This document shows positions 2,563-28,236 of a stretch of DNA of 36,995 nt, piece after piece. Every line of letters begins with the position of its first letter. Position 1 is the stretch's first letter. Under the pieces are notes generated by a model, which was not told the origin of the DNA, did not search any database, and worked only from the letters and a program-made list of their open reading frames with translations. The DNA comes from a virus. The position numbers and the translations under genes were made by a program. Location of the stretch: IMG/VR virus record IMGVR_UViG_3300021425_002358, positions 1 to 36,995 of that record; one strand, given 5' to 3'.

Positions 2563-4179
2563 TTACTCAACACCGTCTTCAGTGTCAAGGGTGGCGGGCT
2601 TTGAAACAGAAATCTCAGGATCAAAAGACAAACCGGCAAGAGCAGTTGCAACCTTGGCTAACAACTCTTCATGCTCAACCTTAGTTGAGAAATGCAAGTC
2701 AACTCCATCCTCTGATTTAAAAGTAAACACTGGAACCTCAGCAACTGCACTACTTACATCAAACGCTTCATTGTCAGAGCACTTAACGTGCACAACAAAA
2801 CCTGACGTAACCTTCTCACCCTGTTCCATCGGGCGAGACATGGGGGCAGAAGTCAAGAAATTTTCAAGTTCGTTAATAAGAGACAAGGTAGCCTCACGTA
2901 CTTCACCAGCACCACGAATCTTGAGCATTTCATTATAGGCCATCAACAAGAGTGCCATCGGGTCCTTAAGGTAATCAGGCTTACGGTCTCCCCGCATCAT
3001 GTGACCCTTTTCCTCAGTATCGCAAGAGCAAGCATCTTTTTCAGACTCACAACCACAGTCAGCACTCTTCGCTTCTTCCACTTCAACACCTTCAAGGTAG
3101 TTGTTGTGCGAATTGATGTTTGCATTTCCATCAAACTTCTCAAGAGCCTCTAGATACTCATCGTGTGTCTCGCAGGGCAGATAGCCACCACCGTGAGAAT
3201 GATAGCCTGAGCAACCAAAAGTCTTCGACCATGCTAGAGCAATATCGGGCGTAGCCCAAGTTCCCTGCTCTGGATTAGCGTCACGAATACCTTCAGGTTC
3301 CTCAGCATCCTTCTCATCTGGGTCCTTCACCATCATCGAAGTAGGTGCGTCATCTCCCACGGGAGTATAAGTTGTCATAGGCTTCACACGAGTTGGCTTA
3401 CCAATCATGATCTGCTGACCTTCACGGTTGAACGTAGCCATCCAAATCATATTTTCACCAGTCTGGAAAACGACGTTATTGTCATTAATCTCTAGAATCT
3501 GAACCGGCTTACGAAGTGCTTGGGAAAGCATACGTCCCATCATTGCAGACATCGCATCTGCACGATTAGCAGGAGCGTCCTTATCGTCGTCCATGTTGTA
3601 CATTCCACCCTTCTCGGAAGTTCCTTCATTATCATCTTTGACAGAGATTGTGCCAGTCAACTGGTTGGCTCCGTGCAGAACCGGAGAAATCTCGTACAGT
3701 TCTACTTCCTTAAGCATATTGGCCTGACGAGAAGCATCAAAATCAGCATTAATCGTCTTATAGCCGATTGACCATTCCTGATCCATACCGTAAAATGCCA
3801 CGTTCGCAAACGCTTCACGTCCTCGCTCGGTGTTGAGATTGAACTGAACCTTTGCAAAAAGACCACCGATACCAGCACGCTTCATCTTCTCGGGAAGGCG
3901 AGGGTCAGACTTCGGAACTTCGTAAATCTCCAGAACCTTACCAATTGGCTGATTCCAATCGTGGCCCCAAACAACACGAGGCTTACGTCGCTTCAATGAG
4001 CCATTAAACGCTCCAGAAACGACAACATCGCCAACTGAATCCTTATTACCGATACCTGAGACAAAGGCTTCAACAATGCCTTGTGCCTTGTCGATACCGA
4101 TCTGGCCGGAAATTGCTTTGAAATCAAATGCGGGATCAGTGTCTTCAACGACATCTGCGTACTCAACTAAAGTAGTCAT
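2563..4179 (-). CDS. HK97-type prohead protease with long C-terminal extension
   Basis: The N-terminal ~180 residues match Caudoviricetes prohead protease (peptidase S78/U35 family), which cleaves capsid and scaffold during head maturation. Visible signatures are GxVEAFVSxxGNxDxxGDVVxxGAF, the catalytic His in VVWGHDW (H73), the nucleophile region EWSIGY (S137) and ELYEISPVLHGAN (160-172). The enzyme usually has about 200 residues; this one has 538. The extension carries GCSGYH..YLPCETHDEY (322-342), shared with the adjacent acidic protein, and a Cys-rich patch (CGC...CSC, 375-386). I chose ATG at 4179 because AAGGAGAGTC precedes it; an in-frame ATG at 4197 has no such site. A TTGACG-16-TACTAT promoter lies upstream (4210-4237). 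Confidence 0.93.
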   Translation of the reverse strand: MTTLVEYADVVEDTDPAFDFKAISGQIGIDKAQGIVEAFVSGIGNKDSVGDVVVSGAFNGSLKRRKPRVVWGHDWNQPIGKVLEIYEVPKSDPRLPEKMKRAGIGGLFAKVQFNLNTERGREAFANVAFYGMDQEWSIGYKTINADFDASRQANMLKEVELYEISPVLHGANQLTGTISVKDDNEGTSEKGGMYNMDDDKDAPANRADAMSAMMGRMLSQALRKPVQILEINDNNVVFQTGENMIWMATFNREGQQIMIGKPTRVKPMTTYTPVGDDAPTSMMVKDPDEKDAEEPEGIRDANPEQGTWATPDIALAWSKTFGCSGYHSHGGGYLPCETHDEYLEALEKFDGNANINSHNNYLEGVEVEEAKSADCGCESEKDACSCDTEEKGHMMRGDRKPDYLKDPMALLLMAYNEMLKIRGAGEVREATLSLINELENFLTSAPMSRPMEQGEKVTSGFVVHVKCSDNEAFDVSSAVAEVPVFTFKSEDGVDLHFSTKVEHEELLAKVATALAGLSFDPEISVSKPATLDTEDGVE

Positions 4180-4209
4180 GACTCTCCTTAAGGACATTGC
4201 AACATTAAT

Positions 4210-4277: not shown

Positions 4278-5072
4278 TTATCTGGTAAACTTCAACACAC
4301 AACGGCAGTTGATAGTTAACGAAGGCGGAGCAACTGGGTCTTTCGGAAACCTAATTGGAACGCCATTCACGAAAAATGGGCTACTTACAGGCACAATATC
4401 ACCATGCAACTGCTTGTGTGGTACACGAACTCGCTCATCTTTTAATGAAATCCACTGTTTATTCAAAGCAACATCGCTGTTGCTAGCAGAATCAAATAGC
4501 CCTTGATTATAAGGACCCAGAACAGCAGAATCTATAATCATTCGTTTGCGGTTGCTGCGTAATTTATTGAAAACCGCTTTGACTAAAGTTGCAGCCAAAA
4601 TAGCCTTAAAGGCAATGTCTATGTCCCCGCCATCTTCTGCCTTTGCAACAGAAGCCGCACCGAGTGCCTGAGCAACTTGATTTTGAGTAGTACTGTTGAA
4701 TTCGTTTACCGTGGCCATATGCTCTGAAATTGCCGCTTCCGCCTGCTGCTCGGTTACAATATCCCCAAACCCTTCTTGAATGTTGTCGGACACGGCCTGC
4801 TCATAGATACTGCGCATGGATACGAGTAAAGGTGCAGTGCTCACGGCCAACTCGGTCATAGGAACTACAGAAGCAAAATTAGAATCTGTTCCTAAATTTA
4901 ACAAAGCAGTTGCTGTAGGTGCCGCAATAGCAGCGAGTGTTGCCTCTTCCTGAGAATCAATAATCTCATCTAACTGCTTAGAAACCTGAGCCTCTAAAGA
5001 ATCTACCCGATAAAGTGCTTTCTGCTCCCACGGTGAATTCTTCGCTAAATCACCAAACTTTAGGCTCGTTGA
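4278..5072 (-). CDS. MuF-type head morphogenesis domain, probably translated by -1 frameshift from portal
   Basis: 264 codons are open from the frameshift point. The C-terminus has the phage Mu F (head morphogenesis) signature: DERVRVPHKQLHG, PVSSPFFVNG, RFPKDPVAPP and the terminal NCRCVLKF. MuF proteins ride with the portal and are incorporated into the head. No ATG or GTG exists in frame before the domain; the only alternative start is TTG at 4904, without a ribosome site, which would discard about 55 plausible residues (SLKFGDLAKNSPWEQKAL...). The frame overlaps the portal end and is exactly -1 to it, becoming open just upstream of a CCCTTTT heptamer (5078-5072). The portal-MuF product would be about 747 residues. 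A single-base sequencing error in the C4T4 run would give the same picture. Confidence 0.85.
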   Translation of the reverse strand, partial: STSLKFGDLAKNSPWEQKALYRVDSLEAQVSKQLDEIIDSQEEATLAAIAAPTATALLNLGTDSNFASVVPMTELAVSTAPLLVSMRSIYEQAVSDNIQEGFGDIVTEQQAEAAISEHMATVNEFNSTTQNQVAQALGAASVAKAEDGGDIDIAFKAILAATLVKAVFNKLRSNRKRMIIDSAVLGPYNQGLFDSASNSDVALNKQWISLKDERVRVPHKQLHGDIVPVSSPFFVNGVPIRFPKDPVAPPSLTINCRCVLKFTR

Positions 5073-6520
5073 AAAGGGGCGCTCTTCCTACCCTCCGGTT
5101 CGTCTCCCTCAAGTTCACTCGGAACAGCCGAAGCCGGAGCCTCAATATTTTGAGCACCAGTTACAGTACCGGCTTCCACAAAACCACCCGCTTCAGGACT
5201 AAACTCGGTTACTACAGACTGCTGTGCCTCTTGAGCCTGAACGTCTAGAGGGACACCACTTTCTACACCGGTCTGCTCATTCATAGCCTTTTCGGTATTA
5301 GCGATTGGAGTCTGATTCGGGTTAGACAGCAACGAATCAGCAATGTCTGACACGACCCGCTTACGACCAGATGCTTCACGATACTCATTAGCACTAATAA
5401 GACCAGTTTGGAACTCAGTCAAATAATGACGTTCACGCTCCTGTTTTGCTAACACCAAAATAGGTACGTTAGCAGTATCAAAGTCCACGAAGTACGAATC
5501 GTCAATCTTGTCGAAAGAGCGAGCGATCAAATCAAGGTGAGGAGACATTGTTTCCATCCAAAACACCTTACCCTCTTCCATAGCATTAGAGAAAGTACGG
5601 TTAGACGAGTTACCAATAATTGACTCAGGTACACCAAACGCCGCAAGAATCTCTTCTTTTGTGATAGTACGCATCTGTACATAAGCAGCGTCACGTGGGC
5701 TAGCAGCCGTATCTACGAAGTCAGCACCATCGTCAGACGAAATCACACCTACAGAACCTGCACGACCAATGTTACCACGGAACCGTGATCGCAGTTCTTC
5801 CTTGTCTTCATCAGCAATTTCACTACGAAGAACAAGCAAACCACCGGGACGACCATCGTTAATCAGGAAGTTTCGGTTGTAAACTTTAGCCAAATTTTCA
5901 AGTTCGATAGCAACCCCCGCTGCTTCCATGGGTGTCATGGACAGATAGGGGTCAAGAGGATGAGGGCGTCGAATCCAAATAACATTTTCTGGCTTAATAG
6001 TACGCTTCTCTGTAGCGTTAATCTTTACCTCAAACCCTTTAACGAACTTAGATACATCCGGGATAGGAGATGTGTTTTGTGGAGGAAGAAGATGCAGAGC
6101 AATCGGTGCCCCGCCACGACCACGAACAATTTCAACAAACGCACCACGGCTGCTCATAAGCAACTGTGCTGAAAGCCGATACCGGAATGCGAAAGCATTC
6201 TCACCGTCGTTAGCAGTGTTATTAAAAAGTTTCAGCATCGGGTTGTTTGCAACAATTTCTCCAAATGGGTTGTTATCTTTACGGAAAATCATGGGCAAAC
6301 GAGCCTGATTAGATGCGATCACATCAATACATCTGAATACCCAAGTTACCTTAGAAACACCATCTCGGTAAGCCTTTGTGATATCCCAGCCGTCATGATA
6401 CCCTCGGTTCTCACCCAGAGAAGGACTGTAGGAGATGGGGGCACCAACAGAAATAGGTGCCGCTTTTTGACCATCATTGATATTCTGTAAGGATTTGTTT
6501 GAACCTGAGTTCCACGCCAT
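5060..6520 (-). CDS. Portal protein, HK97 family
   Basis: 486 residues. The family forms the dodecameric ring at one capsid vertex through which DNA is packaged. Supporting sequence: VFRCIDVIASNQARLPMIF near residue 60, the long central portion with LLPPQNTSPIP and NVIWIRRPHPLDPYLSMTPMEAAG, GRPGGLLVL, and the conserved FGVPESIIGNSSNRTFSNAMEE region near residue 315. The last ~90 residues are Ala/Glu/Pro-rich and low in structure, as expected of a linker. The ATG overlaps the stop of the upstream 52-residue gene as TAATG. At its 3' end a slippery heptamer may send some ribosomes into the MuF frame, so both portal and portal-MuF may be made from one gene. Confidence 0.95.
   Translation of the reverse strand: MAWNSGSNKSLQNINDGQKAAPISVGAPISYSPSLGENRGYHDGWDITKAYRDGVSKVTWVFRCIDVIASNQARLPMIFRKDNNPFGEIVANNPMLKLFNNTANDGENAFAFRYRLSAQLLMSSRGAFVEIVRGRGGAPIALHLLPPQNTSPIPDVSKFVKGFEVKINATEKRTIKPENVIWIRRPHPLDPYLSMTPMEAAGVAIELENLAKVYNRNFLINDGRPGGLLVLRSEIADEDKEELRSRFRGNIGRAGSVGVISSDDGADFVDTAASPRDAAYVQMRTITKEEILAAFGVPESIIGNSSNRTFSNAMEEGKVFWMETMSPHLDLIARSFDKIDDSYFVDFDTANVPILVLAKQERERHYLTEFQTGLISANEYREASGRKRVVSDIADSLLSNPNQTPIANTEKAMNEQTGVESGVPLDVQAQEAQQSVVTEFSPEAGGFVEAGTVTGAQNIEAPASAVPSELEGDEPEGRKSAPFQRA
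5072..5078 (-). promoter_or_regulatory. Candidate -1 ribosomal frameshift site (CCCTTTT)
   Basis: Read on the minus strand in the portal frame this is GCC CCT TTT CAA, so the heptamer C CCT TTT has the X XXY YYZ form. A one-base backward slip lets both tRNAs re-pair with CCC and TTT and enters the MuF frame. The portal stop TAA is at 5062-5060, only ten bases on; the MuF frame has a TAG 12 bases before the first slippery base and none afterwards. A stem of GGTGA (5054-5050) with TCACC (5036-5032) lies 17 bases downstream, farther than the usual 5-9, so a stimulator is uncertain. Confidence 0.6.
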
Positions 6521-6678
6521 TATTCAGCCCCTAGCAGATAGCCGTAAATTCCACAAGTGAGGCCAGCACTTGCCAGACCCCACCCCAAACTCAGTATACT
6601 AATACCAAAGCCTATTAATAGTATACCAGCGCCCATGAGTAAATGGGCGACGGCAGCACGATTTAGAATATTCCTCAT
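6520..6678 (-). CDS. Small two-helix membrane protein ahead of portal (52 aa)
   Basis: The 52-residue frame begins MRNILNRAAVAHLLMGAG and is almost wholly hydrophobic after residue 8, with two likely membrane segments (about 11-30 and 33-50). Its TAA overlaps the portal ATG (TAATG), which implies translational coupling. There is no Shine-Dalgarno; instead TTGTCT-17-TACAGT ends exactly six bases before the ATG, the same leaderless layout as several other genes here. It is the first gene of the head operon. Function unknown; a membrane protein at this site could act early in assembly or be an exclusion factor, but nothing in the sequence decides. Confidence 0.7.
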   Translation of the reverse strand: MRNILNRAAVAHLLMGAGILLIGFGISILSLGWGLASAGLTCGIYGYLLGAE

Positions 6679-6684
6679 AGGTAT

Positions 6685-6713
6685 ACTGTACCTTTTATTT
6701 GTCTAGGAGACAA
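6685..6713 (-). promoter_or_regulatory. Leaderless promoter of the head operon
   Basis: Minus-strand TTGTCT (6713-6708), a 17-base spacer and TACAGT (6690-6685) are followed by six bases and the ATG at 6678. Transcription would start at or next to the start codon. The -35 hexamer overlaps the plus-strand ribosome site of the terminase gene, so the two divergent units share this short intergenic region. A plus-strand TATACT at 6682-6687 could serve terminase, but no matching -35 is seen. Confidence 0.55.
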
Positions 6714-6719
6714 GCAGAT

Positions 6720-8036
6720 ATGTCCACGCAAACACAAGACTGGCAGAAAATCAAAGAATACTTAGAGCCACGTCGTTCGGAATACTGGGTTGAGGAGCCG
6801 TCATTAACTCAAAAAGTGTTTCTTCGCTCAGAAGGACAAGAAGTTATGTTTGGCGGAGCGGCGGGCGGTGGTAAATCTTCGGCCCTAATCATGGCTGCGT
6901 TGCAATACGTGGATGTCCCCAACTACTCGGCAATCCTGTTCCGTCGTACATATGCCGACCTTGCGCTTCCCGGTGCCCTTATGGACCGCTTCCGGGAGTG
7001 GATCATGCAATTCGATGATGTCCACTGGAACGCCAACCAGTATACCGCAACGTTTCCTTCGGGAGCACGTATCACATTCGGTTACTTGAATAACGTAAAT
7101 GATTACCTGCGATACAAGGGTTCGGAATTTCAGTTTATCGGGATGGATGAGGTTACAGAAATCAGAGAGTCTGATTATAGGTATATGTTCTCTCGTCTTC
7201 GCCGCCCAGCATCAGGACCACTATCCACAGTTCCTTTGCGTATGAGATGTGCAACTAACCCAGCACCAAACTGGGTGCGCCAAAGGTTCCTAGTGGAAGG
7301 AAAAGAAAAGGGGCGTATCTTCATTCCTTCAATGCTTACCGATAACCCCGGAATTGACCCGACATCATACCGTGCTATGCTTTCAGAACTTGACCCAATC
7401 GAACGTAAGCGGCTAGAGTTTGGTGACTGGTGGGCGACAACCCTCGGTTCAATGTTCGATAGAAACAACTTTGAAATTATTGAACCTAGTGAAGTTCCAG
7501 AACTCAGTAAAGACACAACTGTAGTTCGGTTCTGGGACTTGGCAGGAACAGAACCCTCAAACTCTAATCCCGACCCTGACTGGACAGTTGGATGTTTGGG
7601 GGCCTTTGATAATGGTATATTTTATGTTCTGGATGTTCGGCGTATACGGGCCAAAGGTGAAAAAGTTGAAAAGTTTATTAAGGAAACTGCCGAAGAAGAC
7701 GGTCCTGAAATTATGATTCAGATGGAACAGGAACCGGGATCAGCAGGTAAAAACCTAATTGACCAGTACGCCAGATACGTTCTTCCGGGTTACAACTTCT
7801 CTGGACAAAGAGCAACAGGCGATAAAGTAACTAGAGCCAAGCCTTTTGCAGCAGCAGTCGCTAATGGAAATGTTAAACTACTTAGAGCCTCATGGAACAC
7901 AGAATTTATTGATGAGTTATCATCATTCCCAGAAGCGAGAGTCCACGACGACCAAGTTGACGCTACTACCCACGCATTTAACCTGTGTGCAGGACTAGGT
8001 ATGGGTATAAGACGTAAAATTGAAATCATTATTTGA
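6720..8036 (+). CDS. Terminase large subunit (ATPase-nuclease)
   Basis: 438 residues; packages DNA into the procapsid through the portal and cuts it. ATPase domain: Walker A GGAAGGGKS (45-53), a conserved LFRRTYADL after it, Walker B FIGMDE (139-144), and the coupling region CATNPAPNWVRQRF (178-190). RNase H-like nuclease domain: FWDLAGTEPS (D273), MEQEPGSAGK (336-344) and HDDQVDATTHAF (D410/D411/D414). These match the Terminase_6 N- and C-terminal families. I chose ATG at 6720 because AGGAGA precedes it by nine bases; a TTG at 6699 is in frame but worse. No small terminase gene lies upstream; the flanking gene is the divergent membrane protein. Confidence 0.96.
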   Translation: MSTQTQDWQKIKEYLEPRRSEYWVEEPSLTQKVFLRSEGQEVMFGGAAGGGKSSALIMAALQYVDVPNYSAILFRRTYADLALPGALMDRFREWIMQFDDVHWNANQYTATFPSGARITFGYLNNVNDYLRYKGSEFQFIGMDEVTEIRESDYRYMFSRLRRPASGPLSTVPLRMRCATNPAPNWVRQRFLVEGKEKGRIFIPSMLTDNPGIDPTSYRAMLSELDPIERKRLEFGDWWATTLGSMFDRNNFEIIEPSEVPELSKDTTVVRFWDLAGTEPSNSNPDPDWTVGCLGAFDNGIFYVLDVRRIRAKGEKVEKFIKETAEEDGPEIMIQMEQEPGSAGKNLIDQYARYVLPGYNFSGQRATGDKVTRAKPFAAAVANGNVKLLRASWNTEFIDELSSFPEARVHDDQVDATTHAFNLCAGLGMGIRRKIEIII

Positions 8037-8870
<834 letters not shown>

Positions 8871-25644: not shown

Positions 25645-28236
25645 TCACCGAGACCTTCTTCTAGAACTTCCTTTTTTATTTCCGCCACCAGAGTCGCCTC
25701 CGGGGCCTCCACCTCCGCCGCCAGAACCACCGCCGCCGCCAGAAGGACCAGACGGACCAGCAGATGCAGCAGCGGCAGCAACAGTTACGGCTGCACTTGC
25801 AGCAACAACAGTACGACGAGTTTCAGTATCAACAGTAGAGCCTTCAGCAATATATTCGTTGTAGGCTTCGTCATCAAAGATGTCTACAGTTTCCTCAAAT
25901 TTCTCTTTGACTTCATCGTCCGCTTCGTTGATGGCGACTACAAGGACTGCCTTAGCATCGTCAGAAATTTGGTCAAAGTTTTCGTCAGTGGCAAGGCTTT
26001 CAATTTCTTCCGTGGTGATTTCACCGTCAACGACATCCAAAAACTCTTCGGCTAGTTCTTCGTCCAACTCGTCCAGTTCTTCAACGATTTTAACTTCTGC
26101 GACATCTACTTCAAGCAGGTCAACACCCTCGGTGTCAATACCTAGTTCTTCAAACTCTACTTTTGTTTCAGCCGCTCGTTCCTCTTCTAGCGTCGGCGGC
26201 ACGGTGGTTGTTGTAGGCGGCGTCCTCGGGATCGTCGTACTCGTTGGCATAGTCGTAGTGGGGGCTACTGTAGTCGTTGTCGTTGACGATGTGGTGGTTG
26301 TCGTGGAAGTGCTGGTAGTTGTAGTGCTTGTCGATGTAGTCGTAGTCGGGGTTACCGTAGTCGTCGTAGGCGGTACGGTTGTCGTTGTCGTTGATGGCGG
26401 TGCCTCCGTTGTCGTTGTTGTAGGCGCTACCGTCGTCGTAGTCGTTGGCGGCAACGTCGTTGTTGTCGTTACAGGTATTGTAGTGGTTGTGGTCGTCGTT
26501 GGAGGCAAGGTCGTCGTAGTTGTTGTTGTGGTTGTAGTGGTGGTTGTTGTCGTCGGAGGAGTGCCTTCTGAAACTTGAATTTCCATCGTTTCACCAACAT
26601 GACAGTCGTTCTCAGAACCGCAAGCAAGAATGTTGAAGTACCACGTTGCACTACCTAGATCATCGTAGGCAACCGTGTAAGAAGTAGATGAAATGTTTTG
26701 AGTATAAACAATATTAGAGTCGTCTATTTCCCATGGATTCCCAAGTTGGTTCCAAGCAATCTTATAGTGTGTAGGATCGACAAATCCGTCGCTAGAAGCA
26801 TCCCAACTAAACGTTAGATCACCAGTAGCGTCATTTCGCTCATAGGTCTGATTGTCAACAACGTCCGGCATGTTCATGATGGAAGCGGATACAATGGGTG
26901 TCCAACTAGAGTATAAAGCGTTAGTGTCGTTATCCGAGCGAACATTAACGTTGAACAAACCGTGTGCTTCGTTGAACAACTGCTCTATGTAAGAAGCACT
27001 GAACGTGTACTCTGTGACTAAGGCATTTTCGTCCCCAACGTTACCAGTTGCCACACCATACGGCCCAGCGTTACCATCGTCATTCAGACCAAACCCAATA
27101 GCGTAACGTTCTGGATCGACGTTTCCGTCAGTTGGGGCATCCCAATCGGCTTTGACTGTGCCGTTGTAGTAGTCAACGGTTAAAGTCAAGTTGGTAGGAT
27201 CGCCTATTGTTTGAGGAATTGTCGTCGTGGTAGTTGTTGTAGTGGCAGGCGTCGCCCAAGTCCAAGTGTTTTGAACAAATCCACAAAGTGTAGAAGAAGT
27301 CAAACCTTGGCATGTGTCCCACGAAGCGTTAGACGACCAGCCATTCGGTACAGAGTTACTGTTAATGGAGTTGAACTGAGGATTAGTGAGCAGGTTGGTG
27401 AGGTCTGTCCATTCGGTGCTCCCATCAAGTTTTGCTTTGAAAGCGACTTCTTTGATTTCGGTTCCGTAGTTGCCTCCCCAACCTTCGCCATCTTTTGCCC
27501 AGATGCGAATCTTTACTGTGTCCCACGATGTTGAATCTTGAACATTCGTAGAGGTAGACGCTGAGAACCAAAAGGAAGGAACCTCAACCCAAGATGTTGG
27601 AGCAGACGAAGTTATGTTGCCCTGAAGCACGTTCCCAACAGAATCGTATGCGGCATATTGTGTCGCAACGTAGTCATTCACATCGTAGGACCGTTTAACA
27701 AGAGGGGTAACAATAATTGAATCAATCTCCCCGGCATATGACGAAACGTCAATCGTCTGCTCAATGTATGCAGGAGTGTAAGAGAATCTGACCCCGTTGT
27801 AGGTGCTGAAGTTTGTTGCAAGCGTCAGGTCAGTGACAAGTGCGTATTCACCATTTTCGTAACCCGGACCAACCTGACCGGGGTAATAGCCCGCCCTAAG
27901 GCGATAAACACCTGCATCCAGCGTGGTGTCAATCTTTGCTGAAACACACTGCTCTTGATCGTTGTGGTTGCCGTCATCATTGCTGGTAATCAGTGTCCCA
28001 GAAAGATTGTACAACCACAAGTGCGGGTCAACCGTTACCTCATTACATGACTGATTGCTGTTGCCGTAGATGACAACATCGGTGCTGTCTGATTCAATCT
28101 CAAAGTACCAGTCCGATTCTTCGGTAACTGTGTATGAAGCGGCGGCTGCCGGGACGGGAGCAAACCACGCTAATGCAAAAACCCACACAAGCGCTGCTTT
28201 AGCCATTCTTTTGTAGGTTCTGCCTTTACGCAGCAT
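25645..28236 (-). CDS. Secreted threonine-rich protein with PPC-like and fibronectin III-like domains
   Basis: 863 residues. Signal peptide 1-33 (Lys/Arg start, hydrophobic core, APVPAAAA end). Residues 35-140 resemble a bacterial pre-peptidase C-terminal (PPC) beta domain (DPHLWLYNLSG, GVYRLRAGYYPG). Two fibronectin III-like units follow (about 345-455 and 458-557; GNVDPERYAI and GFVDPTHYKI are repeats of each other). Residues 560-700 are Thr-rich with Pro/Val breaks, then an acidic segment (705-810), a hydrophobic stretch (about 818-838), a Gly-rich run and a basic tail. The architecture suits a stalk displayed at the cell surface or virion. No catalytic residues seen. The AGG of its ribosome site lies in one arm of the repeat element at 28243-28286. 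Confidence 0.85.
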   Translation of the reverse strand: MLRKGRTYKRMAKAALVWVFALAWFAPVPAAAASYTVTEESDWYFEIESDSTDVVIYGNSNQSCNEVTVDPHLWLYNLSGTLITSNDDGNHNDQEQCVSAKIDTTLDAGVYRLRAGYYPGQVGPGYENGEYALVTDLTLATNFSTYNGVRFSYTPAYIEQTIDVSSYAGEIDSIIVTPLVKRSYDVNDYVATQYAAYDSVGNVLQGNITSSAPTSWVEVPSFWFSASTSTNVQDSTSWDTVKIRIWAKDGEGWGGNYGTEIKEVAFKAKLDGSTEWTDLTNLLTNPQFNSINSNSVPNGWSSNASWDTCQGLTSSTLCGFVQNTWTWATPATTTTTTTTIPQTIGDPTNLTLTVDYYNGTVKADWDAPTDGNVDPERYAIGFGLNDDGNAGPYGVATGNVGDENALVTEYTFSASYIEQLFNEAHGLFNVNVRSDNDTNALYSSWTPIVSASIMNMPDVVDNQTYERNDATGDLTFSWDASSDGFVDPTHYKIAWNQLGNPWEIDDSNIVYTQNISSTSYTVAYDDLGSATWYFNILACGSENDCHVGETMEIQVSEGTPPTTTTTTTTTTTTTTTLPPTTTTTTTIPVTTTTTLPPTTTTTVAPTTTTTEAPPSTTTTTVPPTTTTVTPTTTTSTSTTTTSTSTTTTTSSTTTTTVAPTTTMPTSTTIPRTPPTTTTVPPTLEEERAAETKVEFEELGIDTEGVDLLEVDVAEVKIVEELDELDEELAEEFLDVVDGEITTEEIESLATDENFDQISDDAKAVLVVAINEADDEVKEKFEETVDIFDDEAYNEYIAEGSTVDTETRRTVVAASAAVTVAAAAASAGPSGPSGGGGGSGGGGGGPGGDSGGGNKKGSSRRRSR

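Follow-up and report, generated by a model that had tools for sequence, protein, structure and literature searches.

Programmed -1 frameshifting in dnaX and in elements of the IS911/IS3 type uses a slippery heptamer X_XXZ_ZZN read in the 0 frame together with a stimulatory SD-like sequence, which in E. coli lies 6-17 nt before the motif (PMC4066793); the signal described here has the same two elements. Heptamers of the class H_HH.U_UU.Y, including C_CC.U_UU.U and C_CC.U_UU.C, are among the most efficient in E. coli (PMC4066793). The lambda G/GT tail assembly chaperone likewise arises by a -1 shift in a phage morphogenesis gene, which yields a short and a long form. In Lactobacillus phage A2 and Listeria phage PSA, frameshifting makes a C-terminal extension of a structural virion protein (cited in PMC5009743, PMC10885494, PMC10299305). 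The MuF protein of SPP1 (gp7) binds the portal (gp6) in the procapsid and is located inside the capsid in few copies; the phage can do without it, but its presence favors infection (PMC6316719). The number of gp7 copies is given as one to two (PMC5576092). In-frame fusions with the order portal-linker-MuF are also on record, in the annotation of Streptomyces phage Gilgamesh and in PHROG 2662.

In this study, we analyzed viral DNA of 36,995 nucleotides, IMG/VR record IMGVR_UViG_3300021425_002358, positions 1 to 36,995 (the window). An earlier note on this DNA had proposed a programmed -1 frameshift that fuses the portal to the MuF head protein, and the comparison of relatives supports it. It is highly probable that a functional -1 programmed frameshift in the portal gene yields the 486-aa portal and some 747-aa portal-MuF. 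The phages concerned appear to be a large group of environmental, marine phages.

Portal gene and MuF frame in the window

The portal ORF was assigned by a Pfam profile search (PF04860 Phage_portal, 189.5 bits, above the curated cut-off of 39.1) and by PHROG matches to phrog_2662/phrog_12, portal. The MuF frame comes directly after the portal and matches PF04233 Phage_Mu_F (41.5 bits, curated cut-off 29.6) and phrog_2468. The 3' end of the portal gene reads GAG GGT AGG AAG AGC GCC CCT TTT CAA CGA GCC TAA. The features are listed in Table 1.

Table 1. Coordinates of the portal-MuF locus and its neighbors in the window
Feature	Position	Strand	Remark
Portal protein ORF, 0 frame	5060..6520	-	486 aa; ends SAPFQRA-stop; stop TAA 5062-5060
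Slippery heptamer C CCT TTT	5072..5078	-	read in portal frame, 10 nt before portal stop
Internal SD-like GGAGGG, proposed stimulator	5091..5096	-	12 nt upstream of heptamer
TAG stop, -1 frame	5088..5090	-	12 nt before first base of heptamer; 5' limit of open MuF frame
MuF head protein open frame, -1 relative to portal	4278..5087	-	stop TAA 4280-4278
MuF part decoded after the shift	5072-4281	-	264 codons
Predicted transframe portal-MuF	4278..6520	-	747 aa (483 + 264); join(6520..5072, 5072..4281)
Prohead protease gene, downstream of MuF	2563..4197	-	PF04586
Small hydrophobic ORF	6520..6678	-	52 codons; its TAA overlaps portal ATG (TAATG)

The earlier note had read the heptamer CCCTTTT in the portal frame, placed MuF in exactly the -1 frame with a stop 12 bases before the heptamer and 264 open codons after it, and estimated a fusion of about 747 residues; all of this is confirmed from the sequence. 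Its statement that ATG and GTG are lacking from the MuF frame holds near the junction, but both codons are present further in, and the first ATG, GTG or TTG is a TTG at 4904, about 58 codons past the heptamer. The SD-like GGAGGG upstream of the heptamer had been overlooked. The exact combination GGAGGG-N12-CCCTTTT occurs once in the window, and with up to 2 mismatches it has 2 matches against 0.49 expected by chance.

Several other features of the window were noted. The TAATG overlap of the small hydrophobic ORF with the portal gene (6678-6520, -) suggests translational coupling. The large terminase gene (6699-8036, +) is divergent from the portal-MuF-protease genes (6520-2563, -), which is unusual for a head module. 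The prohead protease has in its C-terminal region a DUF3721-like Cys/His motif that scores below the Pfam cut-off, and the motif is also found in the acidic 643-aa protein encoded next (604-2535, -); neighboring head genes share this module. The ORF at 8046-8312 (+) encodes a small ferredoxin-like protein, by appearance a host-derived metabolic gene in a phage. The 863-aa protein at 25645-28236 (-) has long Thr-Thr tracts and, by appearance, fibronectin-like repeats, and is possibly an adhesion or tail-fibre protein.

Relatives and conservation of the signal

A portal search of IMG/VR gave 80 loci of three classes: MuF in the -1 frame with the heptamer present; no MuF, with the protease directly after the portal; and MuF in +1, with an ATG that overlaps the portal end (ATG AAG AAT CTT GAT), where the heptamer is missing. 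A broader search yielded a sister clade (L190-L221) and shorter in-frame fusions. In the sister clade, portal, linker and MuF are collinear in one ORF of 726-754 aa, 56-64% identical to the query of that search over the matched segment; the in-frame fusions that the earlier note mentioned for other phages are the arrangement of this clade. The C-terminal part of the predicted transframe protein aligns with that of the sister-clade fusions (BLASTP E down to 1e-34). The in-frame heptamer was found in 59/59 loci with MuF in -1, whereas it was found in 0/50 readable loci with another arrangement (29 in-frame fusions, 15 without MuF and 6 with MuF in +1); 6 further loci, interrupted by a contig end, belong to neither number. 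The conservation of the SD-heptamer arrangement among relatives far exceeds chance.

In the sub-clade in which MuF has its own ATG, the corresponding place reads MKNLDDKNIATWEEK and the SD element and heptamer are both absent; the MuF-less sub-clade likewise lacks the heptamer. No relative has both a slippery site and a separate MuF start, and the absence of the slippery site from the ATG-start group is what the frameshift model predicts. Since MuF is absent from one sub-clade, the fusion is not universally needed. The portal tree groups the frameshift, ATG-start and MuF-less phages in a single branch with support 91/100, and the in-frame fusions fall outside it. Read most simply, the frameshift would have been gained once and followed by two exits, one to an own ATG and one by loss of MuF; the direction of change depends on the rooting, which was set by distant isolates. 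No portal relatives were found in bacterial genomes, and the similarity of portal and terminase to those of Gordonia phages hints at an actinobacterial host. The shorter in-frame portal fusions (L195, L204, L208, L210, L211, L214 and L215; 669-692 aa) have no terminal CRC motif. On visual comparison, their C-terminal domain is similar to the N-terminal half of MuF, and the Pfam search of L195 gave portal only.

Constraint on the signal was estimated from 34 dereplicated members with MuF in -1 (median nucleotide divergence 32%); dereplicated members were used because the full set includes near-copies. L218 and L219, in-frame fusions with a chance CCCTTTG, were left out of the synonymous-site test. 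Variation is almost absent from the eight codons up to the end of the heptamer: GAG (34/34), GGT (33/34), GAG, AGG or AAG, AAG (33/34), AGC or AGT (33/34), a C-ending codon (34/34), CCT (34/34) and a last codon that varies only at its third position (TTT in 27, TTA in 6 and TTC in 1). Synonymous changes, counted over minimum-spanning-tree pairs, numbered 8-9 in windows of 7 codons that cover the signal versus 83-85 expected, about one tenth (z about -11.5). This is the strongest constraint in the portal gene; the next lowest z is -5.7, in the 5' part. The codon directly before the CCT of the heptamer is Leu CTC in 23/34 members, as against 5% of Leu codons elsewhere in these genes, because the first C of the heptamer must come from that codon. 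C CCT TTH occurs in frame elsewhere in the same genes only 4 times in 16,936 codon positions. The 0-frame tail past the heptamer varies, its stop lying 10-46 nt downstream across members, and in 29/29 representatives the -1 frame has a stop (TAG, TGA or TAA) 12 nt ahead of the heptamer.

The purine-rich GAGGGTRAG stands at a constant distance from the heptamer across members and gives the strongest or near-strongest anti-SD pairing in most portal genes; it is weaker in a few (L048 and the L068 group). This SD-like element is probably the frameshift stimulator. Its 12-nt spacing fits the 6-17 nt rule, which was derived by experiment in E. coli (PMC4066793). The 6 representatives with CCCTTTA are outside the H_HH.U_UU.Y class, which ranked best in E. 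coli; the tRNAs and anti-SD of the phages' own host may differ. No 3' hairpin was detected when the 60 nt downstream were folded in 34 representatives (mean z 0.14 for structures other than pseudoknots), so the frameshift efficiency may be modest.

The full pattern GAGGGTRRGNAGNGNNNCCCTTTW matched 76 stretches of viral contigs, 58 of which have both portal and MuF by a strict motif test; 7 more contain a portal or MuF of this family in an incomplete stretch. The same pattern had 5 matches in 257 Gb of genomes, all in unrelated places and none with a -1 ORF of more than 28 codons.

Two other candidate sites deserve separate mention. L090 (IMGVR_UViG_3300043331_001325, minus strand, heptamer near 1584-1578) carries a distantly related but convincing portal of 450 aa that ends GGAGGGTGAGAAGCGCCACCCTTTT. 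It has the same SD plus CCCTTTT, then a 212-codon -1 ORF with a Cys-rich end (CTDC...NCGC). Comparison of this ORF with MuF families and with the C-terminal regions of the fused relatives of L090 gave nothing significant, and a search for a second locus of this kind found none. L090 is tentatively a second, independent portal frameshift, and given L090 such a frameshift may have arisen more than once. In two contigs of 187-189 kb, L107 (at 9225, +) and L117 (-), the same SD plus CCCTTTA ends a Gln/Ala-rich gene and is followed by a conserved 126-codon -1 ORF, whose conservation in L117 starts ahead of any Met. This is a candidate frameshift in another phage gene.

Translation of the MuF frame and its dosage

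The strong, conserved SD-like element just upstream of the -1 frame could also serve initiation, so that GGAGGG would drive separate MuF synthesis from a non-standard start codon and no fusion would be made. We consider this very unlikely. No NTG or ATN codon is present at initiation distance from the SD, the -1 codons there being GAA GAG CGC CCC TTT or equivalents, and CTG, ATT, ATC or ATA within the first 20 codons occur only in some members and at varying places. The first ATG, GTG or TTG of the -1 frame is past a conserved WxxK motif in 33/34 members. The stretch from this motif to codon 57 has dN/dS of about 0.14 (13 pairs), and this purifying selection ahead of the first start codon indicates that it is translated. 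Separate initiation also leaves unexplained the conservation of CCC TTT, the limitation of its last base to T, A or C and the preceding third-base C. Moreover, both the SD element and the heptamer are missing from the only sub-clade in which MuF has a true ATG. Slippage during transcription of the C4T4 run would likewise give both products, from mixed mRNAs. However, CCCTTT(T/A/C) is no homopolymer of the length that such slippage usually needs, the CCCTTTA and CCCTTTC members have three T only, and the fixed SD would be left unexplained; this possibility is slighter still. The least probable explanation, an erroneous base in the homopolymer-like C4T4 run of a gene really in one frame, as in the sister phages, is refuted, because the same frames recur in 59 independent loci from many metagenomes, down to about 66% portal identity and with many diverged by 10-38% in nucleotides, and the 0-frame tails and stop positions differ among them.

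Programmed frameshifting would thus proceed as follows. Ribosomes translating the portal 0 frame would reach C CCT TTT while the 16S rRNA anti-SD is paired to GGAGGG, and this pairing would create pausing or tension. With tandem re-pairing of the Pro- and Phe-tRNA to CCC and TTT, some of the ribosomes would go on in the MuF frame to make the 747-aa portal-MuF, while the remaining ones would read QRA-stop and release the 486-aa portal. If shifting occurs in the host and both forms co-assemble, the resulting rings would be mixed: of about 12 portal subunits, only a part would bear a MuF domain, attached through a flexible acidic linker. AlphaFold2 prediction of an in-frame sister fusion gave a confident MuF part (mostly pLDDT 72-92 from residue 490) and disordered residues 381-488; its portal part was poorly predicted from a shallow alignment. 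A disordered linker followed by a folded C-terminal domain fits a tethered MuF.

The earlier note had expected that a fusion would place MuF stoichiometrically on the portal ring. Instead, the frameshift most likely makes MuF sub-stoichiometric, and control of MuF copy number may be its selected purpose. At a modest frameshift rate, a 12-subunit ring would receive a number of MuF domains comparable to that in SPP1. The rate may even be tuned so that each portal ring has, on average, only one or a few MuF domains linked to it covalently, a proposal to which we give slightly less than an even chance. If so, translational recoding would set the copy number of a head protein that is internal or ejected, and the rotational symmetry of the portal ring would be broken.

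Comparison with known systems

Frameshifting, its stimulation by SD sequences and in-frame portal-MuF fusions are already known; what appears to be new is the portal as the gene concerned. According to the earlier note, frameshifting in a portal gene is not known to have been described, and no report of it, or of a frameshift that makes a MuF fusion, was found in the open-licence literature. In the PRFect study, MuF-like genes are mentioned only among 'false positives', as known fusion genes (PMC10885494). Recoding of phage genes would extend to the portal, which is the component of the unique vertex in tailed phages, and the question of how a portal ring carries a minor, sub-stoichiometric head protein would receive a testable answer. 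Because the clade and its sister comprise in-frame fusion, frameshift, separate start and loss, they form a natural experiment in the encoding of protein stoichiometry. Gene callers would give a truncated, wrongly started or missing MuF in these phages, and portal-MuF pairs of environmental phages are probably mis-annotated.

The locus differs from each of its closest counterparts. Compared with dnaX and the IS911/IS3 type, the gene and product are different, the heptamer is C CCU UUH and no downstream hairpin was detected. Lambda G/GT is a gene pair before the tape measure, whereas here the gene is a head gene, the portal, with MuF and the prohead protease beside it; the signal is also different, and a distinct head-protein domain is appended. 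In A2 and PSA, major head or tail proteins are extended, whereas here it is the portal and the extension is MuF. The in-frame fusions are read in a single frame and place MuF on every portal subunit. In SPP1, few copies of MuF are likewise bound to the portal, but gp6 and gp7 are separate genes and the attachment is non-covalent.
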